IMG/VR virus record: IMGVR_UViG_3300006925_000086 | Span: 1-29,792 of that record | From: a virus | Length of the DNA stretch: 29,792 bases | Direction: 5' to 3' (one strand) | In this document: in pieces, positions 2,901 to 29,151 of the stretch | Numbering within the stretch: position 1 is the first letter of the stretch | Layout: each line of letters opens with the position of its first letter | Notes under the pieces: model-generated | Databases searched by the model: none | What the model was told of the DNA's origin: nothing | Seen by the model: only the letters and a program-made list of their open reading frames with translations | Made by a program: the position numbers and the translations under genes

Positions 2901-3133
2901 ATTGTTCCCTCCAAATTTTTAACAAGTGAATCTAAATCACTCCAATCCATTTTTGAAATCACATCACCATTAGGCATACCTGATTGAGTTTTTGCACTCG
3001 GTCTTGGACTTCGGACAAATCCGGCCTTCATAATTGCCGTGTCCGAATCTGCTAATTTTTTTTCTAAATCCTTAACCTTGTCGGAAAGGGCCTTTAATAT
3101 TTCTAAAATTTCAACTGTTGTTTCTTCTTCCAT
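2897..3133 (-). CDS. Small coiled-coil protein, 78 aa
   Basis: No family is recognised. Residues 1-33 (VEILEILKALSDKVKDLEKK) form heptads typical of a coiled coil, followed by a flexible segment (RSPRPSAKTQSGMPNGD) and a C-terminal acidic helix containing MDWSDLDSLVKNLEG. The C-terminal Trp-x-x-Leu piece faintly recalls the N-terminal tag of other proteins here. The ribosome site GAGGAGG lies inside the end of the 829-aa gene upstream, and the gene overlaps the next by 4 bases. It could be a scaffold or head-assembly factor, inferred from position and coil only. Confidence 0.7.
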   Translation of the reverse strand: MEEETTVEILEILKALSDKVKDLEKKLADSDTAIMKAGFVRSPRPSAKTQSGMPNGDVISKMDWSDLDSLVKNLEGTI

Positions 3134-10347: not shown

Positions 10348-11721
10348 TTATTCCTCCTTAACAATCGAATCTAATTCATTCATCAAATCCCATTTACAGT
10401 TATTTTTATATTTTGATATATTATCTTCTTGTATATCATATTTTTCAAACTCAACAGCACCTTGATTGCGAGCATCCTTCCAATTTTCCCACTTAATAAG
10501 TTTAAAAATTTCAGTCATTCTACTTTTAGCCCAAGGCTCTTTCTTGTAAAACTTCTTAATTTTAATTGCCTCTTGTAAAAGTCTACCCTGTTCTTGTTTC
10601 ATGCGAAGGTGGGGTAAGCACTTTTCTAATAATTTTGTAATATCATTTTGACTATAAAAATTTAGCCTATGTTGACTTCTACTATTCTCTCCCACCTTTT
10701 GGTCCAAGTGTAGGCGGCCAATTTTTAATTCCTTTTCCATTTCTTGAAAGAAGGCTCTTCCTCTATCTCCCGTGGCAATCATGCCAATACGGGGAGAATA
10801 TGAAGAGTCCATAGTAATATAACCATCGGAGTCAATAAACCCTGCTACATACCCATAAAGGTCTTTTTTAATCGTATCACTAAGAATGTAGTAATCTCCA
10901 TTAACATTTGTAGCGTTAATTCTTCTCAACATTTTAGAAATTGTCTGCGGTGTAGTAGAGCGATGATAACTTTTTGGCAACATTGAGTGAATACTATTAC
11001 TTGAAATTCCGGGATTATTACAAATGGTTTTTGTGATAATATTATCCAAAACATCTTGTCTTGATTTTCTAATAGACTGATGAGAAATTTCTTTGATTAT
11101 AGAGCGTATGTTTTTCTTGCTTTCCTTGAACACCTTAGTGTAGTCAGTATATTCTTTACCGTAGTCTAATTCATTCTTAAAAATATTAGCCTCCCACATT
11201 TTTGTTAAATTGTCTAAAATTTGCGCTCTCATATCTCCATCCTTGATATGTTCTAATTTTCTTAGTGTGACTATATCAGGTGTAAGTAACTTGAGTGCAG
11301 GTTTATACGGGGAAACCCAATAGATAGAATCCATACACTTATTCAAATGTTCTCCGTATGCGTTAATTAAATGGTCTATTGTCTTACTCATTTTCATTCT
11401 TGAGTCGCCTTTTAGTTGTCTACGCATATTTCTTAAATCCTTAACAATATCCGGTATAGGTTTGTTATCAATTAGTGGTTCTTCAGGGAAAGAAGATAAC
11501 ATATTTCTTGCATCGGTAAGATTAACTTGGTATATTTTAGAAATATCTTTGATAACCTCAGTCTCATCAATAGACTGATACGGTAGCCATTCGCTAAGTT
11601 TAATATCATCCACTAATTGTTTCTTGTTTTCTTTTACTTTATTCTGCGCTTCGTCAAGTTCCTGCAACTTTCTACGAAGTTCGTCTGTATTAATTTCATC
11701 TTCCTTACATATTAATTCCAT
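10348..11721 (-). CDS. LAGLIDADG homing-endonuclease-like protein with helical N-terminus and winged helix
   Basis: Residues 288-300 read LYGYVAGFIDSDG, a good LAGLIDADG motif with acidic residues D297 and D299. RIGMIATG and PHLRMKQEQGRLL follow, as in single-motif members of the family, which cut DNA as homodimers. Before it, residues 222-282 (NPGISSNSIHSM ... TISKMLRRI ... GDYYILS) look like a winged helix-turn-helix, and the first 215 residues are helical and unrecognised. The gene is wedged between terminase and portal, overlapping the terminase by 17 bases. The frame opens at GTG 11730, but that codon lies inside GGAGGTGG, the ribosome site for ATG 11721, so I use the ATG (457 aa). It could be a selfish gene targeting the packaging cassette, or a domesticated packaging-linked nuclease. 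Confidence 0.75.
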   Translation of the reverse strand: MELICKEDEINTDELRRKLQELDEAQNKVKENKKQLVDDIKLSEWLPYQSIDETEVIKDISKIYQVNLTDARNMLSSFPEEPLIDNKPIPDIVKDLRNMRRQLKGDSRMKMSKTIDHLINAYGEHLNKCMDSIYWVSPYKPALKLLTPDIVTLRKLEHIKDGDMRAQILDNLTKMWEANIFKNELDYGKEYTDYTKVFKESKKNIRSIIKEISHQSIRKSRQDVLDNIITKTICNNPGISSNSIHSMLPKSYHRSTTPQTISKMLRRINATNVNGDYYILSDTIKKDLYGYVAGFIDSDGYITMDSSYSPRIGMIATGDRGRAFFQEMEKELKIGRLHLDQKVGENSRSQHRLNFYSQNDITKLLEKCLPHLRMKQEQGRLLQEAIKIKKFYKKEPWAKSRMTEIFKLIKWENWKDARNQGAVEFEKYDIQEDNISKYKNNCKWDLMNELDSIVKEE

Positions 11722-13120
11722 ATATTCCACCTCCGAAATCTTGTCTTGTTGGTGTCCCGAATAACCCGCTACTATCTATGTCTATGAAAGCATCATTAAA
11801 AGACTTTGTGGCGTGATTAGCCAATGCGAGTGCGATAACAATATCATCGTGTGCGCCTAAACCTTCAATTTTTCCCGTACTGCTAATACCGAATGCTTCG
11901 AGTTCTTGTATAATTGCATCGGAAACAGCCTTTGCCTTTTCATCCGCATAGGGTAGTATAATTTTATTGTTCTCCAAATTCATCTGTAAGTTAAGAATAA
12001 TTTCCTCCTTTTTCTTACGGTGCATTGTAAATTCTTTAACGGGAAAGTCGGATATGTCTCGCAGTTCCATAGCAAAGGACTTTGCGAATGTATTAGTTTC
12101 AATCATTACAACTTCGGGTTTGTATCTCTCGCAAAGGTCTGTAATGCGTGTAATGTGAGAACGGAAGTCCATATTTTTTTCTCTTACCATCCAAACCACT
12201 TTTTTATTCATATCTTCATCTACTTCAATAACCATCATTACTGTATAGTCGCCGTCTGCTGAAAGTGAGGGGTCGTAGCCAATGTAGTATTTGAATGCGT
12301 CAGTATTACCATGATACGATAACTTACTTGTTCGGTCTTTAGACTTGTCGATAAATTCTTTTCCAAATAACATCGTGTTGGATGAAATTGGTATGCAGAG
12401 ATATTCTCTTGTGAACTTAGAAGAGCCGATTTCTCTCCTTCTCTTTTCTAAAGAATCTATATCCCAACGGGAGGGCCAAAGAGCATCACCTGTTTGATTT
12501 ATCGCTGGATAGCGTTGAACATCATATTCAGGGTTTTCCTCTAATGCGGCAAATATATCAGTGTATGTGAAAGGTGTGCCGACCATCCGTAAAGTAGCGG
12601 TGTGGTGAAGAGTAGGAATCATGTCTCCCCAAAACCAATCTGTAACTCGCTGTATGGCGGCAACAGAAAACTCCTTCATCGGGTCGTCAATAATAATCTC
12701 TTGAGGGTGAAGTCCACGAATCTGTGAACCAACGGAACGCTCAAGTATTTCATTTCCGTTTGTTAATCTCATTGAGCCGACAGCCCAACCGGACTTAGGT
12801 TTGAATTTTCTTAATGCTGGAATGTTTGTAAACATTCGGTCAATGTCTTTCATGTGAACCATTGTCTGTTTTTGGTTTGATGAAATGTAAATCATTTGAT
12901 ATGGTGGAGGTTGAAAAATTAATTGATAGATACACCAAGAGTGAAAAAATACGGACTTTCCGTGGTCTCGTGAACAAATGATTACAGTTCTTTGAGTGTC
13001 GTGAACTGATTGTAGCCAATCACGATGAAAAGGGGCCATTTCAAATCCGAGAATTTTCGTAAAGAAATATTCAAAATTACCATCGGAGGCTTTCATATCC
13101 ATTTCTGTAAGTAAGTCCAT
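11705..13120 (-). CDS. terL: Terminase large subunit (ATPase and nuclease)
   Basis: This motor pumps viral DNA into the prohead and cuts it. The ATPase shows Walker A CSRDHGKS (49-56), Walker B EIIIDDP (141-147, with D145/D146), and coupling motif VGTPF (180-184). The RNase H-like nuclease shows GYDPSLSADGDYT (D283), VMIETNTF (E341) and HDDIVIALALA (D425/D426), a full acidic triad. At 471 aa it is a normal length, and there is no intein. The start ATG overlaps the previous stop (TAATG), with GGGTGAT upstream. It lies directly before the LAGLIDADG gene and the portal in transcription order. Confidence 0.95.
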   Translation of the reverse strand: MDLLTEMDMKASDGNFEYFFTKILGFEMAPFHRDWLQSVHDTQRTVIICSRDHGKSVFFHSWCIYQLIFQPPPYQMIYISSNQKQTMVHMKDIDRMFTNIPALRKFKPKSGWAVGSMRLTNGNEILERSVGSQIRGLHPQEIIIDDPMKEFSVAAIQRVTDWFWGDMIPTLHHTATLRMVGTPFTYTDIFAALEENPEYDVQRYPAINQTGDALWPSRWDIDSLEKRRREIGSSKFTREYLCIPISSNTMLFGKEFIDKSKDRTSKLSYHGNTDAFKYYIGYDPSLSADGDYTVMMVIEVDEDMNKKVVWMVREKNMDFRSHITRITDLCERYKPEVVMIETNTFAKSFAMELRDISDFPVKEFTMHRKKKEEIILNLQMNLENNKIILPYADEKAKAVSDAIIQELEAFGISSTGKIEGLGAHDDIVIALALANHATKSFNDAFIDIDSSGLFGTPTRQDFGGGIYGINM

Positions 13121-18569: not shown

Positions 18570-18992
18570 TTACTTGTCCTTCAATTGGTCTCGAAGACAA
18601 AATAAATCTTCAAATATTTCTTTATTAATTCCCATAAGACTATTGTATGCAGACACAATTTGAGGTTCAAAATCCGTGTCTGGAGAATTATCTGCCCTTT
18701 TAATTAACACTATTAAATCTTTACAAATCTGTATCATTTCCTCAAATCTATCAATTCGTAAATCCGTATCAATAATACAATCATCTTCTTTTTCCAAAGT
18801 AGTTTGACCTTTACGCTGGGCAACCTTTAATCGTTTGTCTTCACGCTTTTTTCTTTCGGATAAAGATTTGTCAGCCTTCTCCTTCTGCCTCACCGCTTCT
18901 TCAATCGGGTCAAGATTAGCAATACTTTCACCGGCTAAAGTTCTTTGAAAACCAAACTTGGTTTGCTTTTTCTTTAGACCGTCTTTCCACAT
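18570..18992 (-). CDS. Charged helical protein with W-tag variant, 140 aa
   Basis: No family is recognised. It starts MWKDGLKKKQTKFGF, a divergent copy of the shared tag (Gly for Ile). A very charged, probably coiled-coil part follows (EEAVRQKEKADKSLSERKKREDKRLK, about residues 30-55), then a helical domain with LRIDRFEEMIQICKDLIVLIK and EIFEDLFCLRDQLKDK. The longer frame from 19031 overlaps the pentapeptide gene; ATG 18992 is preferred because GAGGAAGTGAGA lies just upstream and the tag then sits at the N-terminus. It is the last gene before the internal promoter. Confidence 0.7.
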   Translation of the reverse strand: MWKDGLKKKQTKFGFQRTLAGESIANLDPIEEAVRQKEKADKSLSERKKREDKRLKVAQRKGQTTLEKEDDCIIDTDLRIDRFEEMIQICKDLIVLIKRADNSPDTDFEPQIVSAYNSLMGINKEIFEDLFCLRDQLKDK

Positions 18993-18996
18993 ATTC

Positions 18997-19761
18997 TCAC
19001 TTCCTCTTACCTTGATACATCTTGTCAGCATTACGGGGTTCTATATTTTTTATACCCTTATGTAGTGAAGCCCCTCGAACATTACAGCGAACTAATGTGA
19101 CATTTCTTACTACTGCAAGTTTAGATAAATCTACACCCCTAAAATCACAATCCTCAAATGTTACATTTGTCATCTTAGCCCCATTAAAATTAGCACGACT
19201 AAAGTTGCACAGTTTAATTACACCTGAAGGGTCTTCTTTTCGATAAAAACCAAACTGTGCTTGTCTAAAACTAGAGTTCTTAAAAGAAACCTTCTTTAAT
19301 CTAATAGGAGTTCTTTTCTTACCAGTTTTCATTGTAAATTTACCTTTACCACTTGGTTTAGGTGTAGGTTTAGTTAAGTCTAATTCATATTCATCTTTCT
19401 TTCTTTGCCCCGCTTGGGCTACACCTTCAAATTTAGAACGACCAGTTCGACCATATTTATTACTCTCCCTTGCTTCTTTGGGTGTGACTCTTTGTTCTAC
19501 TAAACGACCTCTATCATCTCTCTTAGGAGGATATTCCATCTCGGTATATTTTGTTTCTTTTTGATTACTCATATCTTTACCGTTAAATATTTCTTTATCA
19601 AAACTTTTATTATCCATTATTAAATATTCACCTGCGGGTAGTGTGCCGCTAAACTTTTCCTTTCTGTTAACGAAACCTTCAACATGGCCGTCGTCGGAAA
19701 CCTTACGCTTTTTGGCCTCAATTTTATCCCACTTTCTTTTTAATATATCTTGCCAACTCAT
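18997..19761 (-). CDS. W-tagged pentapeptide-repeat protein, 254 aa
   Basis: It starts MSWQDILKRKWDK, the consensus form of the shared tag. Residues 13-155 are basic, polar and probably unfolded. Residues 157-236 are pentapeptide repeats (SFKNSSFRQAQF, then CNFSRANFNGAKM and CDFRGVDLSKL, CNVRGASL) that form a right-handed square beta-helix. Known members of this fold (Qnr, MfpA) mimic DNA and bind gyrase, but most have no known partner, so the target here is open. The start overlaps the stop of the PAP2 gene (ATGA), with GGAGGAAAGG upstream. Confidence 0.8.
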   Translation of the reverse strand: MSWQDILKRKWDKIEAKKRKVSDDGHVEGFVNRKEKFSGTLPAGEYLIMDNKSFDKEIFNGKDMSNQKETKYTEMEYPPKRDDRGRLVEQRVTPKEARESNKYGRTGRSKFEGVAQAGQRKKDEYELDLTKPTPKPSGKGKFTMKTGKKRTPIRLKKVSFKNSSFRQAQFGFYRKEDPSGVIKLCNFSRANFNGAKMTNVTFEDCDFRGVDLSKLAVVRNVTLVRCNVRGASLHKGIKNIEPRNADKMYQGKRK

Positions 19762-20597
19762 TTTCCTTTCCTCCTTTTGTAAGTTTTACAGGCCGCACAG
19801 GTAGGGCGGCATCTTCTCTTTCTACCCTTTGAAGCATCTTTTCTTCCACAAGGCTTAGGTCCGTTTTTCTTTCCACATGAAGAACAGTCAATCCATCCTC
19901 CCTGTGTTTTCTTTCCTTTACCTTCTTTTCCGCCTCGTCGAGAAAACCACCCATGTAAGCCTTCGGACTTCTCTCTCTTAAAGTTATCGCCACTTTGTAG
20001 AATATCTTCCCAAGATTTAGAAATATCTAAATACGCATCAGCAAGCATAAGTCCTACCTTTTTACCTGCTTCTATATCACTTGGATAATGATTTCCCATT
20101 TGAACACGGGAGAGAGAAATTGAATCTGCCATAGTATTAAGTTCCTTTTTCTTATCGGGGTATTTCTCACCGAGAACTTTAGCCAACGCATATGCTTCAA
20201 TAGCGTGGCCGCTTGGAAAAGAAGGTGTGTCATCCGTATTTGTAATAGACTTAATTTTATCCGAGATTTCATAGGGTCGCTTTCTACCGTATTTCATTTT
20301 AAGTCGTATGGTATGAATATCCACATCATCTATAAAATCCCCCCATTCGGACATTTTCTCTCCAACAATGTCGAGCATCATTTTATGATTATTTTTATCT
20401 AAGTCGTTAATAGTTTTTTTATCTAAGTCTTGACCTTCCATAATTTTTAGAACCTTTGGTAGTTCTTCTTCGTTATCGGGAAATGAAAGTTTAGGAATGT
20501 CTACTTCAAAAGAAGGTTCGGAATCAAGAAGTTTTTGCTTACTCGCAGAAAGACTATTCATCCATTTGGATTCTTCCTTGAGTATTTCCCGCCACAT
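19758..20597 (-). CDS. W-tagged PAP2-superfamily phosphatase with cysteine-rich C-terminal domain
   Basis: All three PAP2 active-site motifs are present: K100-x6-R107-P108 (KMKYGRKRP), PSGH (128-131), and S163-R164-x5-H170-x3-D174. The enzyme should remove phosphate from a lipid or other phosphomonoester or pyrophosphate. No membrane segments are seen, so it is more like soluble acid phosphatases or haloperoxidase-type members. It starts MWREILKEESKW (tag). A second tag, SWEDILQSGDN, at 194-204 precedes a C-terminal domain with GLHGWFSRRGGK, GWIDCSSCGK, CGR and CRPTCAAC, resembling from memory the DUF5872-type basic Cys-rich domain of marine viruses. The protein thus looks like two tagged units fused. 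ATG 20597 is chosen over a 13-residue longer frame by the tag and by AAGTGAT upstream (279 aa). Confidence 0.85.
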   Translation of the reverse strand: MWREILKEESKWMNSLSASKQKLLDSEPSFEVDIPKLSFPDNEEELPKVLKIMEGQDLDKKTINDLDKNNHKMMLDIVGEKMSEWGDFIDDVDIHTIRLKMKYGRKRPYEISDKIKSITNTDDTPSFPSGHAIEAYALAKVLGEKYPDKKKELNTMADSISLSRVQMGNHYPSDIEAGKKVGLMLADAYLDISKSWEDILQSGDNFKREKSEGLHGWFSRRGGKEGKGKKTQGGWIDCSSCGKKNGPKPCGRKDASKGRKRRCRPTCAACKTYKRRKGK

Positions 20598-20601
20598 GTT
20601 A

Positions 20602-20814
20602 TCACTTCTTTTTTGAATTGCCCCAATTAGCCGCACCCTTTTTACGACATTGAACTAAAGCACCGGAAGCATAAGCGGAAGGCCATTTTTTATAACGACT
20701 TCTTACCTTGCGATAACAAGCGTCTTTTTTTGCCTTAGATTTCTTTTTCTTATATTGCTTACTACCCTTTTTTCGTCGGGCTTTACTTTTTTTACGCAAT
20801 GTATCGAACCACAT
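20602..20814 (-). CDS. Very basic small protein with CYxKV..W-P-S-A-Y-A-S-G motif, W-tagged, 70 aa
   Basis: It starts MWFDTLRKKSKARRKK, a tag variant merging into a Lys/Arg-rich stretch. Residues 32-66 read DACYRKVRSRYKKWPSAY followed by ASGALVQCRKKGAANWGN. This motif recurs, as I remember it, in small proteins and protein tails of marine tailed viruses, often together with the GWFSRRGG cysteine-rich module that ends the neighbouring PAP2 protein. Its function is unknown; the charge suggests nucleic-acid binding. ATG 20814 is preferred over 20850 because it gives the tag at the N-terminus, with AGGGGTG upstream. Confidence 0.75.
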   Translation of the reverse strand: MWFDTLRKKSKARRKKGSKQYKKKKSKAKKDACYRKVRSRYKKWPSAYASGALVQCRKKGAANWGNSKKK

Positions 20815-20815
20815 G

Positions 20816-21019
20816 TTATACACCCCTAATATTATATTTTCTAATAACATTTCTTAACGCAATTCGTTTTTTAGAATTACTATCTGCTCGTGAAATAAGA
20901 GGGTTATTATATTCTTTTTTATATTCTTTAACTTGTTCAGGATTAAAGTGGTAGGTCTTACCATCAACGGAAAATTTTTTACCGATAATTTTAATCTTTA
21001 AAATCTGAAACCATTGCAA
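20816..21019 (-). CDS. Small W-tagged basic protein with TTG start, 67 aa
   Basis: No family is recognised. The only start that keeps the shared tag is TTG at 21019, giving (M)QWFQILKIKIIGKK; GAGGGATT seven bases upstream, inside the previous gene's end, supports it. The rest is basic, with a short strand pair (KFSVDGKTYHF), a helix (NPEQVKEYKKEYN) and a basic end (KKRIALRNVIRKYNIRG). It may bind nucleic acid, judging only by charge. Confidence 0.65.
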   Translation of the reverse strand: MQWFQILKIKIIGKKFSVDGKTYHFNPEQVKEYKKEYNNPLISRADSNSKKRIALRNVIRKYNIRGV

Positions 21020-21020
21020 G

Positions 21021-21242
21021 TTAATCCCTCGCAGTAAATGGACCTCTACGATTTGAGTCCTTATATTCAGTCTTCATTGGACAATTAGGTTTTATCGGTA
21101 AGGCTGGTAAGTTCATAGGACATGGTTGCCAAGTTTTAACACTTCTATTACATCTACGACAAACGCCTGTTTTTTTAACACCGTTTTCCATAGTTCTTAC
21201 TTGTTCAGGTGTAAGGTTTTTAGTAATGTCTGTCCATGTCAT
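21021..21242 (-). CDS. Small W-tagged cysteine protein, 73 aa
   Basis: It starts MTWTDITKNLTPEQVR, a variant of the tag (Thr for Leu). Four cysteines in CRRCNRSVKTWQPCP and NCPMKTE may bind one zinc ion. The frame opens at GTG 21251; ATG 21242 is preferred because GTGAT lies five bases upstream and the tag is then terminal. No family is recognised. It is tightly packed between other small tagged genes. Confidence 0.65.
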   Translation of the reverse strand: MTWTDITKNLTPEQVRTMENGVKKTGVCRRCNRSVKTWQPCPMNLPALPIKPNCPMKTEYKDSNRRGPFTARD

Positions 21243-21247
21243 AATAA

Positions 21248-21460
21248 TCACATCAAATTGTCTGCTGCTTTAAGCGCCAATTCTTCTGCTTGTGATAAAA
21301 TAGCGATAATTTCTTTCAATTCGCCTCTTTCATTTCCTTTTAACTTTTCAGCATATTCTATTGCATATTGAATCCTGTTCTGTAATATGCCTAATTTATT
21401 AAAAAGGTCTTCATCATCAGGCATTCCGTATTCTTTCTTAATTGTATTTTTCCATGTCAT
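21248..21460 (-). CDS. Small W-tagged helical protein, 70 aa
   Basis: It starts MTWKNTIKKEYGMPDDEDLF, a tag variant, and continues as two long helices (NKLGILQNRIQYAIEYAEKL and ELKEIIAILSQAEELALKAAD), likely a helical hairpin. ATG 21460 is chosen over GTG 21469 because GGAGTGAG lies upstream and it puts the tag at the N-terminus. The first 23 bases overlap the end of the 74-aa gene. Its function is unknown. Confidence 0.65.
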   Translation of the reverse strand: MTWKNTIKKEYGMPDDEDLFNKLGILQNRIQYAIEYAEKLKGNERGELKEIIAILSQAEELALKAADNLM

Positions 21461-21662
21461 TTTTCTCACTCCATAAGTTTTTCCATAATTTATGTCTCTC
21501 GTAATTTTCTTCTAAGTAGTCGATAACCTCGTCTTTCGACGGCGCGTTATAACCAAGACTGTCTGTAAGGTGTTTATAAATGTTTTCAAATAAACTGTCC
21601 TCGGTTATATAAGAATCCAGCATTTCACGCCAATCGAGTTTAAGAATATTTTCCCAACTCAT
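21438..21662 (-). CDS. Small W-tagged acidic helical protein, 74 aa
   Basis: It starts MSWENILKLDWREML, a full tag. The remainder is acidic and helical (SLFENIYKHLTDSLGY, KDEVIDYLEENYERHKLWKN). The ATG overlaps the stop of the 119-aa gene (ATGA) and follows a GGGGGG-rich ribosome site. No family is recognised. Confidence 0.7.
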   Translation of the reverse strand: MSWENILKLDWREMLDSYITEDSLFENIYKHLTDSLGYNAPSKDEVIDYLEENYERHKLWKNLWSEKNDMEKYN

Positions 21663-22018
21663 GTGTTTTCCCCCCTAAATTTCAATGCTTCACTAATCGC
21701 ATCAATTATCCCTGCAACTGTGTTATAGAAAAGTGTATTGCCGTCTTCAAATGCTTCATCATGCCCTTCGTCTTCCATAAATTCTTCCTGCTTTGCGCCA
21801 ATTTTTCTTAACAAAGTAATTAATACACCTTGAGTTCGTTCTTCCGAATACATAGGACTTTCTAAATAATCTATTAAATGAAATATAATACCTATAATTG
21901 AGTTCGGTTGGTTTGCATCACCAATATAACGAGGTGGAAAGTATTCTACAATTTCTCTACGAAGGTCTTCAAATAGGGCCGTTGGGTCGTCAAATTTTAA
22001 AATGTCTTGCCACTTCAT
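21659..22018 (-). CDS. W-tagged acidic helical protein, 119 aa
   Basis: It starts MKWQDILKFDDPTALFEDLR. The body has helices with hydrophobic faces (SIIGIIFHLIDYLES; GVLITLLRKIGAKQEEFME; TVAGIIDAISEALKF). No catalytic motif is seen and no family is recognised. The ATG overlaps the stop of the metallopeptidase gene, with GGGTGAGAGG upstream. Confidence 0.7.
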   Translation of the reverse strand: MKWQDILKFDDPTALFEDLRREIVEYFPPRYIGDANQPNSIIGIIFHLIDYLESPMYSEERTQGVLITLLRKIGAKQEEFMEDEGHDEAFEDGNTLFYNTVAGIIDAISEALKFRGENT

Positions 22019-22647
22019 CGCCTCTCACCCCTTTTTAACTTTATTACAAAGGATTCAAAAATTCTTCTAACGGTAGGTTCTATAACTTGAATAAGTGCTT
22101 CCATAACCATAGGGATTTTTTCTGGCTGCATATTTGCCGCTCCCATTGTTCCTATAATTCTTGCCTCAAAAGAAGATAAAATAAATTGAGCAAATCTATT
22201 TCTACCTTCTCGTGTTTCAAAATTTCTCTCTAATGAGTAGGCCTGTGTTTCTATTGCCATTTCTTGTTCTAAATATGTTTTTATAGCATTTCCTATGTTA
22301 AATTCTACATCATCTAATGCTCTTACCAACATATTTATAGATAAGTTTTGGATAGGTGTTTCTCTCACACTTAATACAAAGGAAATAATAGCATCTCCAG
22401 AGGTATCAACAATTTCCCTCATTATTGGTTCCGTATTAAATTGGGCTTCATGTGTTGATTCATGTGCTAATACTAAGGCAAGTTTCTCCGGTGTCACATT
22501 AGGATTAGGAGAAATAACAGTTTCTCCGGTCGCTGTGTTATAACTGGCAGTTTCTCCCATAAGACTTTCACCCATTCTAATTCTCGGTGCAGGTCTATCA
22601 CGGTCTACCGGCTTGAAAGAAATTTTTAAAATATCAAACCAATTCAT
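22015..22647 (-). CDS. W-tagged HExxH metallopeptidase-like protein, 210 aa
   Basis: It starts MNWFDILKISFKP (tag). Residues 55-69 read KLALVLAHESTHEAQ, an HExxH zinc site (H62, E63, H66) in a helix typical of gluzincin-type peptidases. A downstream helix with AIETQAYSLE (131-140) offers E133 as the third zinc ligand in the ExxAY setting seen in that group. So a small zinc protease is likely, though the substrate is unknown. Candidates are the host envelope, a host regulator or a virion protein. The ATG overlaps the previous stop (GCATGA). The tag on an enzyme with no packaging motif supports a common delivery or assembly signal, as inference. Confidence 0.7.
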   Translation of the reverse strand: MNWFDILKISFKPVDRDRPAPRIRMGESLMGETASYNTATGETVISPNPNVTPEKLALVLAHESTHEAQFNTEPIMREIVDTSGDAIISFVLSVRETPIQNLSINMLVRALDDVEFNIGNAIKTYLEQEMAIETQAYSLERNFETREGRNRFAQFILSSFEARIIGTMGAANMQPEKIPMVMEALIQVIEPTVRRIFESFVIKLKRGERR

Positions 22648-23306
22648 GCTAATCTCTCTGCAATATCATCTCGTATCTCAGTCCATACTTCGGGGTATCT
22701 TTCAATAAGAACCTTTTGTATAACTTCAATCTGTTGAATCACCACTGTTTCTTCTCGCTTATGTACTAATTTGCCCTTAAATTCGAGCGCATACTTTAGC
22801 GACTCACGAATTTCTTTACTAAGTTTTACTAAAGAATCCACTGTCTTGAAATCTAAATCTTCATTGTCTAAAATAAATTGTTGAATCTTACCCTGCAACA
22901 TTGAAACATTTTGCGAAAGTAGGTCAATTTCATTTAGTTCTACACGGGCTACATCTAATGCCGCCGATTGTTGAACGATAGGTTTGAGATGTTTTTTCAT
23001 ATGTAGGTTAATTGAATCGACTCCGACTTCTAAATATTCTGCAACCCTGCTCGGTTTCATATGTCCATCTACAATTGCCGCTTCTAAATCCTTTCTATTT
23101 GGCGCAACACATAAAGCACACTTATCATTTGAATCATCGTGATACGCATTCAAATGTTCCTGCATATGTTTTCTTGTAGTTCCGGCTCTCCAACCTTCTT
23201 CTCTATCAAGAGCATTGGCATCCATGCGCCCTTCAAGAATTTCTATTTCTAAGTTATCCCTATCAGGATGATTACAAAGAGGACAAGACTTACGAATTTT
23301 ACGCAT
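22644..23306 (-). CDS. Zinc-finger DNA-binding protein, possible terminase small subunit, 220 aa
   Basis: Two tandem units share one layout: C8-x2-C11 ... H47-x3-H51 and C63-x2-C66 ... H102-x3-H106, with exactly 35 residues between the second Cys and first His in both (CPLCNHPDRDNLE ... KHMQEHL; CALCVAPNRKDLE ... HMKKHL). Each unit contains a helix-turn-helix-like stretch (SRVAEYLEVGVDSINLHM). The C-terminal half is a long helical segment (DFKTVDSLVKLSKEIRESL) that could oligomerise. Small terminase subunits of several archaeal and bacterial tailed viruses have this HTH-plus-helix build, so that role is plausible, but the gene is 9.5 kb from terL. ATG 23306 is chosen (TTG 23312 is an alternative) because GAGG lies eight bases upstream. 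Confidence 0.65.
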   Translation of the reverse strand: MRKIRKSCPLCNHPDRDNLEIEILEGRMDANALDREEGWRAGTTRKHMQEHLNAYHDDSNDKCALCVAPNRKDLEAAIVDGHMKPSRVAEYLEVGVDSINLHMKKHLKPIVQQSAALDVARVELNEIDLLSQNVSMLQGKIQQFILDNEDLDFKTVDSLVKLSKEIRESLKYALEFKGKLVHKREETVVIQQIEVIQKVLIERYPEVWTEIRDDIAERLA

Positions 23307-23844
23307 TGTCAATAGCCTCTCTTAATTGTCTCTTAAATAAATTACCACTTTGCATACCATAAGTAGTGGTATCACCAAATGCTATCGTAACTGGTCCTGC
23401 TAATATTTTAAAACCGGGATATTGAGTTAAGGTGAACATAATATAATCATCACCTAATGAGGCGTTATCCTGCATAACTTGACCGGAGTTATCTAATAAA
23501 TCCTGCTGTCGCTTTCTTTCTTCTTCTGTAAGGTTTTCTCCAGCCGCCGTTCTTTCGGTAAATTCATTTAATTCTAATATTTCTTCATTAGATAGTGGAG
23601 TTTCTTCTGTCATACCAACGCCCTGCGAACCACCACTGGTAAATCCGGGGGTTAAATGTAGATGGAATTTATCTTCAGTAAAAATTTCAATAAACCCTTC
23701 AATGAGTTCAACGAGTTCTTCATCATCCGATTCATTAATTATTCTTTCCAATAAGGGTAAATGATATGACAATATATCTTTATACGCTTTAATAATCGAC
23801 CACCAATTTCCACTACTATTTAACGGGCCTCTACTGTTGTTCAC
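23299..23844 (-). CDS. Protein of unknown function, 181 aa
   Basis: No family is recognised. It begins with GTG overlapping the previous stop (GTGA), with GGTGAT in front. Near the N-terminus GNWWSIIKAYKDILSYH (12-28) is a degenerate tag displaced by about 13 residues. The middle is acidic (SDDEELVELIEGFIEIFTED) and the C-terminal part is strand-rich (DYIMFTLTQYPGFKILAGPV). It overlaps the zinc-finger gene by eight bases. Confidence 0.65.
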   Translation of the reverse strand: MNNSRGPLNSSGNWWSIIKAYKDILSYHLPLLERIINESDDEELVELIEGFIEIFTEDKFHLHLTPGFTSGGSQGVGMTEETPLSNEEILELNEFTERTAAGENLTEEERKRQQDLLDNSGQVMQDNASLGDDYIMFTLTQYPGFKILAGPVTIAFGDTTTYGMQSGNLFKRQLREAIDNA

Positions 23845-24962
23845 TTTATCACCTTCATTAAATTGCTAAATGCTTCCATGGCATCGAGTTGCTTGAGAGT
23901 AATTCCATCTCCCTCGGTGCTTCCGGGAACTTTGAATGTTTCCATTTGTTCACCCATAACGGCACGAACAACCGCATTAAGAGTTTTATTACTCTTAGGA
24001 AAACGCATTGTAATATTATTTATTTTTTCGTAATTAACCACTTCGTCAATCTCAACACGCTCACCTTCAATTTTGACAGTGCAGGTATCTACAAGTATTG
24101 CGAGGTCTGAAGAACTAATGTTAAATGTTTTATTTCTCACCGCATCGTTAAGTCTACTTTTTACGGGGAATCTTCTACCTTTTGTGTAAATAGTTCCATC
24201 AGCCATAACTTCTCGTATTGCTTTATTTAATCCGGCTACCGTAGCCAATCTTTCTGCTGTTCTTGAGCCTAAATTAGCATTAACATCAATTTTTATAGGT
24301 GCTGAACCCGGCCCCATACTCTTTTCAACTATTTCTTTAATATCAGCAACCAAACTTTTTAGGCTATTTTTTTCACCTAAGATTGCTTGCCAAAGTGGAG
24401 GCTTTGCTTTGTTTTGAGGTGGCTCGCCACCTTCTTTAGAAAAAGCATACCATTCGGGTTTAGGCTTTTCACTTGCGAAGGCTTCGTTAATTTTCTCCGC
24501 TTTCCATTGGCGGTATTCCCAATACGGGACTGTCAAAAAATGACCCGCTACCACACCTCTTTCTATTTCAGGTTCATCATCTTCACCTGCCGGAGGTTTA
24601 AAAGAAATCATAGTTCTAAATTTAATATTTGCGGGATTACGACCCGGCCTTGTTTCTATTCTCGCTAAATCTCTTTCCATGTCATCAAAATCAAGAAGGT
24701 CTTCTTCGAGGAAGGTTTCTCTCTCCAAGAAAGATTTGAGTTTTTCTAAAATTGCTCCGCCACCTGAAAAGTCTATATTTTTTCTTGACATTCCTACACG
24801 GCCATGATTTTCTACCGAAAGATAAACAGACTTAGCATTAACCTTTCCAGTGTTGGCATCCGGCCTACCTGTAATGCCGAATTGAGAATTTTTACTTGGT
24901 CCCCAAAAAGCCTTATATTCTTCAAGTAATGCTAATGCACCTTCTCTATCCCATTCAAACAT
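23841..24962 (-). CDS. Protein of unknown function with an internal W-x-x-I-L segment, 373 aa
   Basis: No family is recognised. It starts MFEWDREGALALLEEYKAF; the frame extends to 25007, but ATG 24962 sits right after GAGGAGGAAGAGG and overlaps the previous stop (ATGTTTGA). A mid-protein PPLWQAILGEKNSL at about 188-201 resembles the tag and may mark the joint between two parts. The N-terminal half is mixed, with KSVYLSVENHGRVGMSRKN; the C-terminal half has regular strands and helices (ERLATVAGLNKAIREVMADG, LAILVDTCTVKIEGERVEID). A virion or tail component is possible but unsupported. Confidence 0.65.
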   Translation of the reverse strand: MFEWDREGALALLEEYKAFWGPSKNSQFGITGRPDANTGKVNAKSVYLSVENHGRVGMSRKNIDFSGGGAILEKLKSFLERETFLEEDLLDFDDMERDLARIETRPGRNPANIKFRTMISFKPPAGEDDEPEIERGVVAGHFLTVPYWEYRQWKAEKINEAFASEKPKPEWYAFSKEGGEPPQNKAKPPLWQAILGEKNSLKSLVADIKEIVEKSMGPGSAPIKIDVNANLGSRTAERLATVAGLNKAIREVMADGTIYTKGRRFPVKSRLNDAVRNKTFNISSSDLAILVDTCTVKIEGERVEIDEVVNYEKINNITMRFPKSNKTLNAVVRAVMGEQMETFKVPGSTEGDGITLKQLDAMEAFSNLMKVIK

Positions 24963-26553
24963 CTTCCTCTTCCTCCTCACTGAAGGTGGGTCGATGTAGA
25001 GTTTCAAAACCTTCGCTTTGCGAAGTCGTTGCTTCCTTTGCCAATTTTAATAATTCCATTACAGACAAGGGTATTCCTAATTTTTTACCATCGGAAATAA
25101 AACTCTTTAAGGCAGATTCCCAATCCTCGGACTTTGTATTAGAGGTTTTTCTAAGATAGTCTGTCCACTTCATATTAATAGGGAGAACGGATTTACTACT
25201 TAAGTTCTTTGTAATTCCGCCTTCATCCTGTTCGACCATTTCCCCGTTAACAAGTTCGTATTTTTTTCCATTCCATTTAATCCAATATTCCCCGTCTTTC
25301 TTATAATCAAATAAACCTAAAACATTATCTTCAGGTAATTCCCATTCTTCTATTGCGTTCATAATAAATTCTTCTTCGGACATTTCACTAAGATTATAAA
25401 TTTCTTCTATATTATCAGTAAAATTACCATCATCGCCTAAATATCCACCTTTACGGTCGGACCATAAATCTCCCCCTAAATTTACATATTCTAAATAGTC
25501 GTAAACTTCATACATATCCTCTTCTAAATATTTAACTATAAATTTAATAAAATCAACATCTTCCGATAATATCTCTCTCACCTCATACAAACCCATCTCA
25601 TCACCGTCTTCGTCATATAACATATTATTGGAAATAAATATTTTGTCGTTATCTGTATCTTCTAAAATTGATTCAGGGTCTCCTCTTACGGTTAAATCAT
25701 ATTCATTAGGGAATTTAAGCCTAAATAATTTATTTTCCTGTAAAAACATGTCACCCACGACATGCCTAAAATGGGGGTTAAACACACCATTAGGACCTTC
25801 TTCATCTTGAACTTCTTCGTCTGCTTGAAACCTTGGTTCAAATCTTATATCCGTAAGTTGTGTTGTTGCAGTACAATTTTCACACTGATACCCCTCATCC
25901 GATATAGAAAATTCATTAAAATGCCCACAAACTTGACATTGGAGTTCTTGCCAATCGGACATATAATCCGTAAGACCTTCAACACTTTCGCTCGTTGATT
26001 CATCGTTAAGTAGACCTAATGCTAAACCCAATAGATTATCTCCAGCAGGTTTTCGTTCATCTATTTCTATACAAATAGAATAACCCTCATAAGTTCTTAC
26101 CTCATAACAACCACTGGATTTTAAACTCGAAGAAAGAATTGTATATTGGTTTGTCGAATCTCCAATAATTTCAAAACCCGCCCCTATGTCTATTATTTCG
26201 TCTATAGGTTCTATAACTTCATAAAACCAATTTAAAGAACGAAAGGTGGGCTTTACACTTTCAACAACCCTTTTTTTGTAGGCATCTAAATTTTCGGAGC
26301 GACCAAATTCACCTTTCACTTTGTCGAGAATACTGTCTAATCTTATATCTTCACTCTCTACTAAACATGCTATATCTGACCCACCATCTCTTTTTTTAAC
26401 CCTAAGAGATACCATACCCCTACCCAGAGAAGAATATAGATATGAGAAATGTGTTACTTCCCATTCTCTATGTTCCCCTTCTATCGCTTCCTTCGCTGCT
26501 TTTATAACATCTTCACGCTTAATAACTCCCTTTAATATATTTTGCCAATCCAT
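24955..26553 (-). CDS. W-tagged acidic protein with zinc ribbon and internal tag, 532 aa
   Basis: It starts MDWQNILKGVIKREDV (tag). C206-x2-C209 and C224-x2-C227 (CQVCGH ... YQCENC) form a rubredoxin-like zinc ribbon. Residues 290-420 are very acidic (DPESILEDTDNDK; SEEEFIMNAIEEWELPEDN). At 461-470 MKWTDYLRKT repeats the tag inside the protein, followed by a short helical domain and an acidic end SEEEEEDV. No ribosome site precedes that internal ATG, so I read it as a fused second tagged unit, as in the PAP2 protein. The end of this gene supplies the ribosome site of the next. No overall family is recognised. Confidence 0.75.
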   Translation of the reverse strand: MDWQNILKGVIKREDVIKAAKEAIEGEHREWEVTHFSYLYSSLGRGMVSLRVKKRDGGSDIACLVESEDIRLDSILDKVKGEFGRSENLDAYKKRVVESVKPTFRSLNWFYEVIEPIDEIIDIGAGFEIIGDSTNQYTILSSSLKSSGCYEVRTYEGYSICIEIDERKPAGDNLLGLALGLLNDESTSESVEGLTDYMSDWQELQCQVCGHFNEFSISDEGYQCENCTATTQLTDIRFEPRFQADEEVQDEEGPNGVFNPHFRHVVGDMFLQENKLFRLKFPNEYDLTVRGDPESILEDTDNDKIFISNNMLYDEDGDEMGLYEVREILSEDVDFIKFIVKYLEEDMYEVYDYLEYVNLGGDLWSDRKGGYLGDDGNFTDNIEEIYNLSEMSEEEFIMNAIEEWELPEDNVLGLFDYKKDGEYWIKWNGKKYELVNGEMVEQDEGGITKNLSSKSVLPINMKWTDYLRKTSNTKSEDWESALKSFISDGKKLGIPLSVMELLKLAKEATTSQSEGFETLHRPTFSEEEEEDV

Positions 26554-26554
26554 A

Positions 26555-27220
26555 TTACCACCTTCCTAATATTTCTTTAGGTTCTATTGCTTTAGCAAGC
26601 CAGAAATTGAGACCATTTATATCAAGTTCCTTGATTCTGTATATAGGCAATTCTTCATAAAATGAATCAGGTAATCTCCGTTCCTTGTAAAGTTGAATAA
26701 GAAAAGACCTTTTATACTTTTTTTCACTGGTATCATAAACATATGAGTCCACGGAATATTCATGTCCTGTATATGTCGCAAAGGCGACGAATTTTATAAT
26801 GTCAGGGACAACATTATTTTTTACCGCATACACTAAGGTAGTTAAAAAATCACCATTTGTCATATCACTGGTAGCCTTCACACATACATTTTTATCCCCT
26901 ACTTGAATATAATTATCATCAGAAATATCACCTAAACCATTTAATCTTTGAGAAATAGTACACCTTTCCCCAAATACTTCAAAAGAATATAAGACAGTTC
27001 TTTTGCCTAATCCTATGAAATCTATATCATCTTTAATGGGTCTCATAAATTCTAAAGTCCTTACTAAAGGTTTTAAGCGTTCAGGTGTTATTACTCTAAA
27101 TTTTTCAGCAATATGATTTATTTTTATATTAGGGTCAAAAAAATGAACATTATTTACATATTCGTCTACAAGTTTATCTCGCCCTTCCTCTTCCGACTTT
27201 AAAATATCTTGCCAACCCAT
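26555..27220 (-). CDS. W-tagged protein, paralogue of the gene upstream, 221 aa
   Basis: It starts MGWQDILKSEEEGRD. It shares with the 228-aa protein KPL-V-R-TLEFM-(R/K)P, a GLG/GIG turn, C-V-K-A-(T/N)-x-x-MTNGDF-x-x-TL and a final Gly-x-Trp end, in the same order, so the two are tandem duplicates. The sequence looks alpha/beta and soluble, without catalytic motifs I recognise. The stop and next ATG (TGGTAATATG) have the same arrangement as after the 228-aa gene. Confidence 0.75.
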   Translation of the reverse strand: MGWQDILKSEEEGRDKLVDEYVNNVHFFDPNIKINHIAEKFRVITPERLKPLVRTLEFMRPIKDDIDFIGLGKRTVLYSFEVFGERCTISQRLNGLGDISDDNYIQVGDKNVCVKATSDMTNGDFLTTLVYAVKNNVVPDIIKFVAFATYTGHEYSVDSYVYDTSEKKYKRSFLIQLYKERRLPDSFYEELPIYRIKELDINGLNFWLAKAIEPKEILGRW

Positions 27221-27221
27221 A

Positions 27222-27908
27222 TTACCATCCCTCTAATAATTCTTCAGGTATGTATTCCTTTAACCATTCGTTTAAAATATTCAATGGTATTTCGCCATCA
27301 TTATTATTATTTAAAACGGGCCAGTCTATTTCATCAAGACCTAATACATGTTCCCATATTCTTTCTAAAAGTGTGTCCTTGTATGAGTGTTCATTTATAT
27401 CATAAATATGTGTATCGTTGTGCATTTTAGTTTCCGGCATGTGTCTTTCTACATATGCTGGAAGAGTAAGAATTGTAGGTAATTGGTTATTTTTACTTGC
27501 GAGAAGAAGTGTAACCATAAAATCCCCATTTGTCATCACCCTATTAGCCTTTACGCAAAAACTCATTTGAGTTGAGTCCATTACCGGGAAAGTATCTTCA
27601 GCCCTTTCACCAATACCTTTTACAGTCAACCCAGCCGGTAAAACCGGCATTTTAAATGTAAAAGGCACTCCATATATATCGAATTTAAAAACAAAATCTA
27701 AACCATCTCTCTCAATTTCATCAAAGGGTTTCATAAATTCTAAAGTTCTTTTATAAACAAGGGGTTTAGTGCTGTAATACATAGATGAAAGAAACATGTC
27801 TTCTTCTTCTTTAGTTATTTCTCTTATTGGTGTAAATTCTCGAAATGAAATTAGTAACTCTTGGGCCAAATCACGGTCTTTATTCTTTAATATATCTCGC
27901 CAACCCAT
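27222..27908 (-). CDS. W-tagged protein, paralogue of the gene downstream, 228 aa
   Basis: It starts MGWRDILKNKDRDLAQ. It has the same core as the 221-aa protein: KPLVYKRTLEFMKPFDEIE, KGIGERAEDTF, FCVKANRVMTNGDFMVTLLL and a C-terminus ELLEGW. The function is unknown. GGCGGTG precedes the ATG. As the first large gene of the accessory block it may be expressed early. The family's conserved MTNGDF segment would be the best search seed. Confidence 0.75.
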   Translation of the reverse strand: MGWRDILKNKDRDLAQELLISFREFTPIREITKEEEDMFLSSMYYSTKPLVYKRTLEFMKPFDEIERDGLDFVFKFDIYGVPFTFKMPVLPAGLTVKGIGERAEDTFPVMDSTQMSFCVKANRVMTNGDFMVTLLLASKNNQLPTILTLPAYVERHMPETKMHNDTHIYDINEHSYKDTLLERIWEHVLGLDEIDWPVLNNNNDGEIPLNILNEWLKEYIPEELLEGW

Positions 27909-27910
27909 TA

Positions 27911-28012
27911 TTACACCGCCTTATTGAAAAATTGGCCGGTAATTTTTTTGGGACTAGCGAAAAAATTTTTTTCTTTTTTAATCCATTCCCAGCGAAAGTT
28001 TATTCCCGACAT
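27911..28012 (-). CDS. Tiny basic protein, 33 aa
   Basis: Between two longer genes the minus strand encodes MSGINFRWEWIKKEKNFFAS then PKKITGQFFNKAV. A good ribosome site (AAAGGAG) lies eight bases before the ATG, and the stop is four bases from the next start. RWEWIKKEKN at residues 7-16 is a loose relative of the W-tag. At this size coding is likely but not certain. Confidence 0.5.
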   Translation of the reverse strand: MSGINFRWEWIKKEKNFFASPKKITGQFFNKAV

Positions 28013-28075
28013 TATTTATTTCTCCTTTGTTTTCTTTGATAGTTTGGTTTATTTGGCCTTAACTTTTCTGTTTTT

Positions 28076-28444
28076 TTACTGGGGTCCCCTTTCTTTCGCC
28101 GTATCTTTTTGTTTATTTGAGTCTTTTTTGTCAAGTGTATTCCCCTTTTGGCGAATTACGAGACTTTCCAAAGGTAAATCTTGTAATGCACTCCAACTAT
28201 TAATGTCTAATTCGCAATGTCTATATAAAGTTTTACAGTTTTGCCGAGTTTTGCGTATCTCCGCAAGTATTAAGCCCAATTCTTCTTGATTTTTTGCTGG
28301 AGGGGGGTATGAATTGCGCCAAAGTGTGTCAAAATGGTCCCAGAGCCATAAAATTTTATCTATTTCTTCCATCATGGCCCACATTGAGGGCAAATATAAG
28401 GTATTTCTATGTTGGCGCATGGCCGGTTTCATAAAATCTCGCAT
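28076..28444 (-). CDS. First gene of the long minus-strand operon, 122 aa, unknown
   Basis: No family is recognised. The N-terminal half is rich in Trp and Met (SMWAMMEEIDKILWLWDHFD), the middle is helical (EELGLILAEIRKTRQNCKTL), and the end is charged and probably disordered (NTLDKKDSNKQKDTAKERG). No ribosome site precedes ATG 28444, but a TATA-like element is centred 27 bases upstream, so the mRNA may be leaderless. The first position in the operon suggests an early regulator, as inference. Fifty-odd untranslated bases follow before the 33-aa gene's ribosome site. Confidence 0.55.
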   Translation of the reverse strand: MRDFMKPAMRQHRNTLYLPSMWAMMEEIDKILWLWDHFDTLWRNSYPPPAKNQEELGLILAEIRKTRQNCKTLYRHCELDINSWSALQDLPLESLVIRQKGNTLDKKDSNKQKDTAKERGPQ

Positions 28445-28465
28445 GATTATTATGAAGGGCTTTGC

Positions 28466-28485
28466 GTATTTAATATTTTTTAATT
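28466..28485 (-). promoter_or_regulatory. Promoter of the long minus-strand operon
   Basis: The minus strand reads AATTAAAAAATATTAAATAC, with TATTAAATA centred about 27 bases before ATG 28444. This is leaderless geometry, as for the prohead protease. The palindrome ACCATATGGT lies about 34 bases further upstream and could bind a regulator shared with the divergent plus-strand gene. Confidence 0.5.
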
Positions 28486-28504
28486 AAAAAAATTCCCAAA
28501 GTGA

Positions 28505-28520
28505 ACCATATGGTAAGGTA
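28505..28520 (+). promoter_or_regulatory. Palindrome ACCATATGGT, copy 1, in the divergent promoter region
   Basis: ACCATATGGTAAGGTA lies between the divergent genes at 28444 and 28581. The same 16 bases occur in inverted orientation at 29359-29374, so the pair brackets the noncoding array. TAAGGTA also has an inverted partner TACCTTA at 28532-28538. On the other side, TTC-N7-GAA abuts the palindrome on the minus strand. A likely role is operator for both promoters. Confidence 0.6.
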
Positions 28521-28580
28521 AATTTGTGGACTACCTTATGAGATAAAAAGTATTGATAATAACATGAAAGGTGATTACTA

Positions 28581-28802
28581 ATGTATTCTATGATAGGCAA
28601 TAATGCACACGGCCAACCCAGTAAGGTGTATGGAATGGTTTGGTATTCTCAAGAGGATTATTGGGCTTTGCTTTTTACTGAACATTCAAGGGGTAGCGAA
28701 AAAATATGGATTTCTCAAGATTGGATTATTGATGGAGTTGCATGGCATCCTGCAATTGATATTTTTGATTGGGTAATTGATGTGGGGGATAGCATTGTTT
28801 GA
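28581..28802 (+). CDS. Acidic, tryptophan-rich small protein, 73 aa; only plus-strand gene
   Basis: No family is recognised. It reads MYSMIGNNAHGQPSKVYGMV followed by a tryptophan-rich, acidic body (EDYWALLFTEH, IWISQDWIIDGVAWHP, IFDWVIDVGD). The pattern suggests a compact beta-rich domain with strong negative charge. A perfect archaeal ribosome site, AAGGTGAT, lies five bases before the ATG. The gene diverges from the long operon and ends in a UUCG hairpin terminator. A single acidic divergent gene beside an operator-like palindrome could be a regulator or a DNA-mimic type inhibitor; that is speculation. Confidence 0.75.
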   Translation: MYSMIGNNAHGQPSKVYGMVWYSQEDYWALLFTEHSRGSEKIWISQDWIIDGVAWHPAIDIFDWVIDVGDSIV

Positions 28803-28820
28803 TGATGAATGAAAAAAACG

Positions 28821-28849
28821 AGAAGGGGGGCTTCGGCCCTCTTTCTTTT
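28821..28849 (+). terminator. UUCG hairpin plus U-run after the plus-strand gene
   Basis: AGAAGGGGGGC-TTCG-GCCCTCTTTCT folds into a stem of about 11 pairs, including G-U pairs, capped by a UUCG tetraloop and followed by TTTT. It starts 18 bases after the stop codon of the 73-aa gene. It fits a transcription terminator or a 3'-end stabilising hairpin. Confidence 0.7.
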
Positions 28850-28888
28850 GGTTGGGGTCGCCCAACAAATTATATACTTACCATATGG

Positions 28889-28952
28889 TTCGTAGATAAT
28901 GAAAGTATAGGGTTGGTATGTGGGTGGGAAGATAGTTTCACTTACTAACGAA
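28889..28952 (+). ncRNA. Structured unit 1: hairpin with G-rich core
   Basis: The outer stem is TTCGTAG (28889-28895) with CTAACGAA (28945-28952, one bulge). The inner stem is TGAAA (28900-28904) with TTTCA (28936-28940). The loop core at 28907-28932 contains GGG-TT-GG-TATGT-GGG-T-GGG. It is the weakest stem of the three. TTATATAC lies just before the palindrome. Whether it is transcribed is not shown by the sequence. Confidence 0.5.
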
Positions 28953-29067
28953 AACGAAAAGTGTCCTTTTCTTATTTGAGGATATATACTCCTCAGTCGT
29001 GACAGTATTATCTTGTGAATACTCCTTCCTCATTATTACCATATGGTTCTACATAGTAGAAATTAGG

Positions 29068-29151
29068 TTAAAGAATTTTAACACAGATAGAGACGAACAT
29101 AGGGTGTGCTTGTGGGCGGGAGAAAGGAACGGTTGTGTTAAAGTTCTTTAA
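29068..29151 (+). ncRNA. Structured unit 2: 18-pair stem with G-rich core
   Basis: TTAAAGAATTTTAACACA (29068-29085) pairs with TGTGTTAAAGTTCTTTAA (29134-29151) over 18 positions; the single non-Watson-Crick position is a U-G wobble, which favours RNA. The loop core at 29099-29124 aligns without gaps to unit 1 and holds GGG-N9-GGG-C-GGG-N5-GG. TTCTAC-ATA-GTAGAA (29047-29061) forms a second small dyad. GGATATATACTCC (28980-28992), a TATA-like element, lies about 55 bases before the palindrome. Confidence 0.6.

Follow-up and report, generated by a model that had tools for sequence, protein, structure and literature searches.

The stretch of viral DNA analysed here, 29,792 nucleotides long and referred to throughout as the window (IMG/VR record IMGVR_UViG_3300006925_000086), carries a series of genes whose products begin with the same short sequence, M(x)WxxILK, and most of these genes lie between positions 18570 and 28012. 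Its sequence marks the window as part of the genome of a magrovirus, a tailed virus linked to marine Poseidoniales archaea. Its terminase large subunit (TerL; 11705-13120, on the minus strand like the tagged genes and the genes of the 78-residue and portal proteins below), which places it among the magroviruses, is 67-100% identical to its counterparts on 80 IMG/VR contigs. These include several of 90-96 kb, and several contigs of that size are matched at 68-98% identity across the full length. Magrovirales are described as having genomes of about 90-110 kb with two opposed modules (ICTV profiles; PMC12999244, PMC10768690). The placement rests on the TerL matches, the head genes and the two-strand layout, the named magroviruses having been compared by description only.

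A first-pass annotation of the window had claimed 14 starts bearing this tag. Thirteen of them are recovered at the positions claimed by a six-frame scan with the pattern M(x)Wxx[ILVT][LIRTV]K, where the window's own composition predicts 0.013 tagged starts per 33 genes. From the right end, and with the start codon at the higher coordinate, they comprise proteins of 228 residues (MGWRDILK; 27222-27908), 221 residues (MGWQDILK; 26555-27220) and 532 residues (MDWQNILK; 24955-26553), a putative metallopeptidase of 210 residues (MNWFDILK; 22015-22647), and proteins of 119 (MKWQDILK; 21659-22018), 74 (MSWENILK; 21438-21662) and 70 residues (MTWKNTIK; 21248-21460). These are followed by a Cys-rich protein of 73 residues (MTWTDITK; 21021-21242; MTWTDLIK in its relative in genome G004), a protein of 67 residues with a TTG start ((M)QWFQILK; 20816-21019; MEWFQILK in its G004 relative) and a small basic protein of 70 residues with a WPSAYASG module and a weak, DUF5872-like match (MWFDTLRK; 20602-20814). 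A PAP2 phosphatase of 279 residues with a C-terminal GW..DC..KPCGR module (MWREILKE; 19758-20597), a pentapeptide-repeat protein of 254 residues (MSWQDILK; 18997-19761) and, between the portal and protease genes, an 829-residue protein (MWETILKR; 3136-5625) complete the set; the last keeps its tag in relatives although its N-terminal part diverges. The fourteenth start, that of a 140-residue protein (18570-18992), has the degenerate tag MWKDGLKK (MSWQDGLKK and MIWQDGLRK in relatives) and falls within a longer open reading frame (ORF), 18570-19031. With MTWKNTIK and MTWTDITK it makes up the three loose tags.

The bodies that follow the tag had been called unrelated, which is mostly so; the proteins starting at 27908 and 27220 are related to each other, and the 14 tags thus stand on 13 families. 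The PAP2 phosphatase and the pentapeptide protein named by the first-pass annotation are both confirmed (PF01569, E 3.5e-13; PF00805, E 2.2e-11). Its HExxH protease does contain that motif but remains putative, since the match to DUF6782 (E 5e-4) falls below the cut-off of that family. The annotation also missed tag-like segments inside three proteins of the window, together with a related motif at the C-terminus of a 78-residue protein described below. The segments are MKWTDYLRK in the 532-residue protein (25147-25173), KSWEDILQ separating the PAP2 domain from the GW..DC module (19995-20018), and GNWWSIIK (within SGNWWSIIK; 23788-23811) at residues 12-19 of a 181-residue ORF (23299-23844). 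Two of them mark fusion joints. The C-terminal part of the 532-residue protein, from MKWTDYLRK onwards, is in relatives a separate tagged gene of 51 residues starting MTWEKYLK, and the GW..DC..KPCGR module, fused to PAP2 in the window, is in genome G008 a separate gene starting MTWQDILR. Because tag-like segments stand at these joints, tags seem to arrive with each module and to survive fusion.

The expectation that the motif would recur at N-termini in related viral genomes is borne out. In ten related genomes or long contigs, whose genes were called by a start rule independent of the tag, it is present on 165 of 1001 gene starts versus 10 of 5763 internal methionines (Fisher p 8e-128); miscalled starts or fusion joints account for several of the ten internal cases. 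Each genome has 10-24 tagged genes. Under a slightly wider definition of the tag, 174 tagged proteins sort by their bodies into 87 clusters, 57 with a single member, and in an alignment of 135 tagged proteins MxWxxILK is the sole common sequence. The profile reads M, [S/N/T/K/G], W, [E/K/Q/F], [D/N], I, L, K, with W3 in all 124 tags profiled, K8 in 122 of them and no conservation past K8. A search for tag DNA over all of IMG/VR led to 39 large contigs that were examined, 31 of which carry the magrovirus gene for the major capsid protein (MCP); the other eight may be fragments. On these contigs, selected for having one tag match, the broad pattern matches 256 times, all but once on a single strand per contig, and a reversed control matches 0 times. 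Ile, Lys and Asp are encoded in the tag as they are in the bodies, and 114 of the 118 24-mers that encode tags differ from one another; together these observations indicate a signal at the protein level; an element acting at the DNA level is ruled out by the codon usage. Serine at position 2 is encoded by AGT in 48 of 65 cases and the leucine codons lean to CTA, which hints at copying of the tag by duplication.

The tag is confined to one of the two modules. Across seven near-complete genomes it is found on 120 of 450 genes of the late (structural) strand and on 0 of 372 genes of the early (replication) strand (p 1e-35), and the tagged genes flank and interrupt the head and tail genes. Presence in at least five of the seven genomes was recorded for 33% of tagged but 60% of untagged late genes (p 1.7e-7), as expected if the tagged genes encode accessory cargo. 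Recognisable among the tagged proteins are the PAP2 phosphatase, the pentapeptide protein, the putative metallopeptidase, DUF5754, DUF5872-like and small Cys-rich proteins; SUKH, AbiJ_NTD4 and DEK_C each have one weaker match. Two genomes contain tandem arrays of tagged paralogs (G011, 83494-89600, or L101:3494-9600; G012, 26160-29092, on L113) in which about 25 further residues after the tag are common (NIQISSQRTSSKDYVxPDE; VQISxxRQKLRSD) and the remainder differs; these look like arrays that diversify cargo.

When all proteins are scanned beyond their starts for sequences like M-x-W-x-[DE]-[IL], a counterpart of the tag emerges in the head module. Only two conserved families have this motif with methionine at -2 from the tryptophan, namely the head protease and the 78-residue head-module protein, and both have it at the C-terminus, in a form that can be written M-[SD]-W-x-[DE]-[IL]. 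In the protease it lies in the last 15-20 residues as EMSWEEINDLV (8 of 8, L replacing M in one), a stretch that forms a terminal helix in the predicted structure. Its tryptophan, W372, does not vary among 52 aligned proteases, whose mean column identity is 47%, and is present in 30 of 30 more recovered through tag DNA, preceded by M or L in 27 and by I in three. The first-pass annotation had the virus encode a prohead protease; this is true of the relatives, from which the gene would lie just past the left end of the window and thus outside it. The 78-residue protein, untagged at its N-terminus, is encoded within the window (2897-3133) and ends in KMDWSDLDSLV (2921-2953); across the family the motif, given as KMDWSEIDELV, is present in 10 of 10 proteins. 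When a profile derived from the tag was run over 231,479 internal 8-mers, internal tag copies, fusion joints and both of these C-termini came near the top. The C-terminal motif may be the counterpart of the tag for docking on the prohead core or scaffold.

The lysine that ends the tag has parallels in the head as well. The head protease is a Peptidase_S78 (PF04586; E 3e-12, 47.4 bits against a cut-off of 21) and the magrovirus capsid protein belongs to the SU10 type (PF17236); in HK97 the S78 protease, gp4, cleaves the capsid protein at K103/S104 (PMC10275583). The magrovirus MCP consists of a conserved N-terminal piece and a conserved shell domain joined by a variable, gapped linker, and within this linker lies an invariant lysine (K26 of A6; 51 of 51 in the alignment). 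Its context is [ILV][LMI]K/[ASGQ] in 58 of 58 unique sequences, one of them with S in the middle position, and the lysine recurs in 30 of 30 further MCPs (29 by the pattern and one as LLK/T), or 88 of 88 overall. In the protease, K205 and K349 are invariant and stand at the start of or within linkers of low predicted local distance difference test (pLDDT) score, a lysine at position 22, ahead of the catalytic domain, is nearly invariant, and a conserved IAK site precedes the C-terminal W motif. The 78-residue protein has such a site as NVLMK/SG and, in the window, AIMK/AG (3026-3037), a conserved hydrophobic-hydrophobic-Lys that is a candidate for cleavage. ILK at the end of the tag fits this context, and the protease may cut at all of these lysines, the one in the tag included. 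Searches of PDB profiles with the protease and the MCP gave nothing useful. Distant relatives of the capsid gene in genome G033 of the Thermoplasmatota set (L261, L262) have a similar site, IIRK/A, near the N-terminus, and the tag pattern has 0 matches in that genome.

Outside these viruses the tag does not rise above chance in the genomes examined. It is no common start of cellular proteins in the host phylum, an outcome that the first-pass annotation had named as refuting its proposal: across 390 Thermoplasmatota genomes, Poseidoniales likely among them, the broad pattern occurs at chance level, with any match in only 126 genomes and at most 4 per genome, and most of 30 such loci that were read stop within a few codons. 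A start signal of the host is ruled out by these figures. The tag strings tried have no match in the literature text searched, and the magrovirus survey searched makes no mention of an N-terminal motif.

We propose that M(x)WxxILK is probably an N-terminal tag for prohead targeting and processing, docking and cleavage being taken broadly. The first-pass annotation had likened the tag to the capsid-targeting sequence of phage T4 and proposed that it brings cargo into the virion, and this reading is strengthened by the confinement to the late strand, the C-terminal W motif of the protease and the 78-residue protein, the match of lysine sites and the rarity in the host phylum. An amphipathic helix, M-x-W-x-x-[IL], would dock on the inner side of the assembling head, at the site used by the C-terminal helices of the protease-scaffold (EMSWEEINDLV) and the 78-residue protein (KMDWSEIDELV), and tagged cargo would thereby be enclosed together with the protease. 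The S78 protease would then cut after hydrophobic-hydrophobic-Lys in its own linkers, the N-terminal piece of the MCP, the 78-residue protein and the ILK of the tag, a cut that would free the cargo inside the head ahead of DNA filling. More speculatively, some of the cargo may enter the host with the genome and act early, candidates being the PAP2 phosphatase, the metallopeptidase, the pentapeptide protein and the small basic and Cys-rich proteins. Docking followed by cleavage would explain together the tag, the C-terminal motif, the lysine sites and the restriction to late genes. A role of the tag in head loading appears highly probable from these patterns, and cleavage at ILK is favoured with less assurance; injection of at least some cargo we consider an even chance. 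A still broader version, to which we lean slightly less than evenly, is an order-wide system of modular delivery in which the docking helix of the protease-scaffold was copied onto dozens of unrelated, fast-changing proteins that are enclosed, cut once and injected to disarm or reprogram Poseidoniales, so that any gene gaining the eight-codon tag could become cargo.

Several points weigh against this proposal. The residue after the ILK of the tag varies freely (R, N, I, S, A, E and others), as against A, S, G, Q or T after the MCP site, and the match between the two is thereby weakened. Hydrophobic-hydrophobic-Lys is a common sequence that occurs also in replication and packaging proteins, mostly in well-conserved contexts; because its conservation alone is unspecific, weight was put on invariant lysines in variable linkers. 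The N-terminal lysine site of the protease is predicted to lie in a strand instead of a linker, F replaces W in a few divergent 78-residue proteins, and the AlphaFold model of the capsid protein is poor (pLDDT 42). We know of no virion proteome of any magrovirus, and for this reason encapsidation is something we infer.

The tag might instead be a propeptide for the protease only, with W-x-x as a recognition element and cargo reaching the head otherwise; its N-terminal position and its ILK end, which resembles the putative cleavage sites, would suit this. However, the MCP and protease linker sites have neither the W nor the M, so that W seems unnecessary for cutting, and at the C-termini of the protease and the 78-residue protein the W with M at -2 is kept with no lysine at the spacing of the tag. 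We regard this explanation as unlikely. Slightly less likely still is the suggestion, raised already in the first-pass annotation, that the tag docks proteins to a common hub other than the head, such as some protein of the host or the virus inside the infected cell. Short W-x-x-[IL] sequences are docking motifs in many systems, PAP2 enzymes often act at membranes, and late expression also suits roles in lysis or at membranes. Yet the motif is common to two conserved head-module proteins, no early-strand protein is tagged, and the mixed cargo includes the 829-residue protein encoded within the head module; a hub, if real, is most likely a head component.

Descent without any targeting, whether by repeated duplications in which the N-terminus persists as the bodies diverge or are exchanged, or by constraints of translation on the early codons, is very improbable. 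The tandem paralogs of G011 and G012, with their extra common residues, and the mainly AGT codons of Ser2 are what such a process would leave. It is contradicted by Ile, Lys and Asp codons like those of the bodies, by the differences among the 24-mers, by the sharp end of conservation at K8 and by the recurrence of the motif away from starts, at head-protein C-termini and module joints. We give no credence to chance, nor to a start that is common among host proteins, given the 0.013 starts expected in the window and the chance-level matches in the host phylum.

The capsid-targeting sequence (CTS) of T4 is MKTYQEF-like, and the magrovirus MxWxxILK bears no resemblance to it. The likeness lies in the arrangement, since the T4 sequence (on IPI-III and Alt, cut by gp21) is also a short N-terminal peptide on diverse proteins, with a head-protease site apparently at its end and variable, lineage-specific bodies behind it (PMC3012670, PMC7411985). 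The two differ in that the P1 residue at the cut would be Lys here versus Glu in T4, the protease is of the S78/HK97 type, and the magrovirus tag stands on 10-24 genes per genome and is known from sequence alone. In phage P1 an N-terminal signal puts the antirestriction protein DarB in the head, its first 30 residues sufficing for a reporter (PMC9024508); more than nine residues are needed there, whereas the conserved part of the magrovirus tag has eight and is spread over many families. The tag would thus function like the T4 CTS and the P1 DarB signal while being by sequence a member of neither. For the SPN3US protease gp245, a C-terminal propeptide is proposed to direct the enzyme into the prohead and to be self-removed (PMC7411985), which recalls the magrovirus protease, where the W motif follows a conserved IAK site; unlike the W motif, that propeptide is not known on the N-termini of cargo. 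HK97 gp4 shares the Peptidase_S78 family and a lysine at the cleaved bond (PMC10275583), but no tagged cargo is known for HK97, and the magrovirus capsid protein is of another type, SU10. The cultured relatives of magroviruses, the Druskaviridae (HVTV-1, HCTV-1, HCTV-5), arrange terminase, head genes, protease and MCP in a similar order, but HVTV-1 has the tag on 0 of 42 starts read and its protease is missing the C-terminal W motif.

If the proposal holds, no capsid-targeting tag of an archaeal virus has, to our knowledge, been described before, and candidate virion cargo (10-24 proteins per genome) could be listed from sequence in viruses that are very abundant in the ocean and mostly unannotated. 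The magrovirus acid phosphatase, which has been treated as metabolic (PMC10160649), and similar genes would be recast as possible virion proteins, and the tag could become a compact tool with which proteins are loaded into HK97-type capsids. Sharp and cheap predictions also follow from the proposed docking and cleavage.

The WPSAYASG module of the 70-residue protein is found in 365 phage records, nearly all cyanophages, and often adjoins terminase genes in those examined; in the cyanophages and the roseophage examined it is without such a tag. The S-CREM2 virion proteins that were checked against mass spectrometry, gp136 and gp137 (PMC10665884), have no WPSAYASG module, and cyanophages therefore give no direct proof of a virion location; gp136 itself starts MQTFSMFFSED, which is loosely CTS-like. 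The WPSAYASG module (20602-20814 in the window) and a module like GW..DC..KPCGR (the PAP2 C-terminus, 19758-20000) co-occur in cyanophage gp114-like proteins near terminase genes (L122-L126), which suggests a head-associated function common to very different marine viruses.

Two further records stood out. One IMG/VR contig (G419; 3300021958_000021, 184,733 bases) has two magrovirus capsid genes that differ from each other and lie about 91 kb from one another, and is either two joined genomes or a chimeric assembly. The contig NZTP01000016.1 (L209), which carries a gene with 58% identity to the magrovirus clamp-loader (RFC small subunit), is assigned to a metagenome-assembled genome labelled Altibacter sp., a bacterium, probably through a binning error. 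Elsewhere in the window, the portal protein (8687-10345) matches phrog_18178 (E 1.9e-60), and a gene resembling an ATP-dependent DNA ligase (373-2478) lies within the head module and directly precedes the head protease in relatives. An HNH-endonuclease-like gene (10348-11730) shares 26 bases with the end of the terminase gene, and its position between terminase and portal is kept in 10 of 10 genomes.

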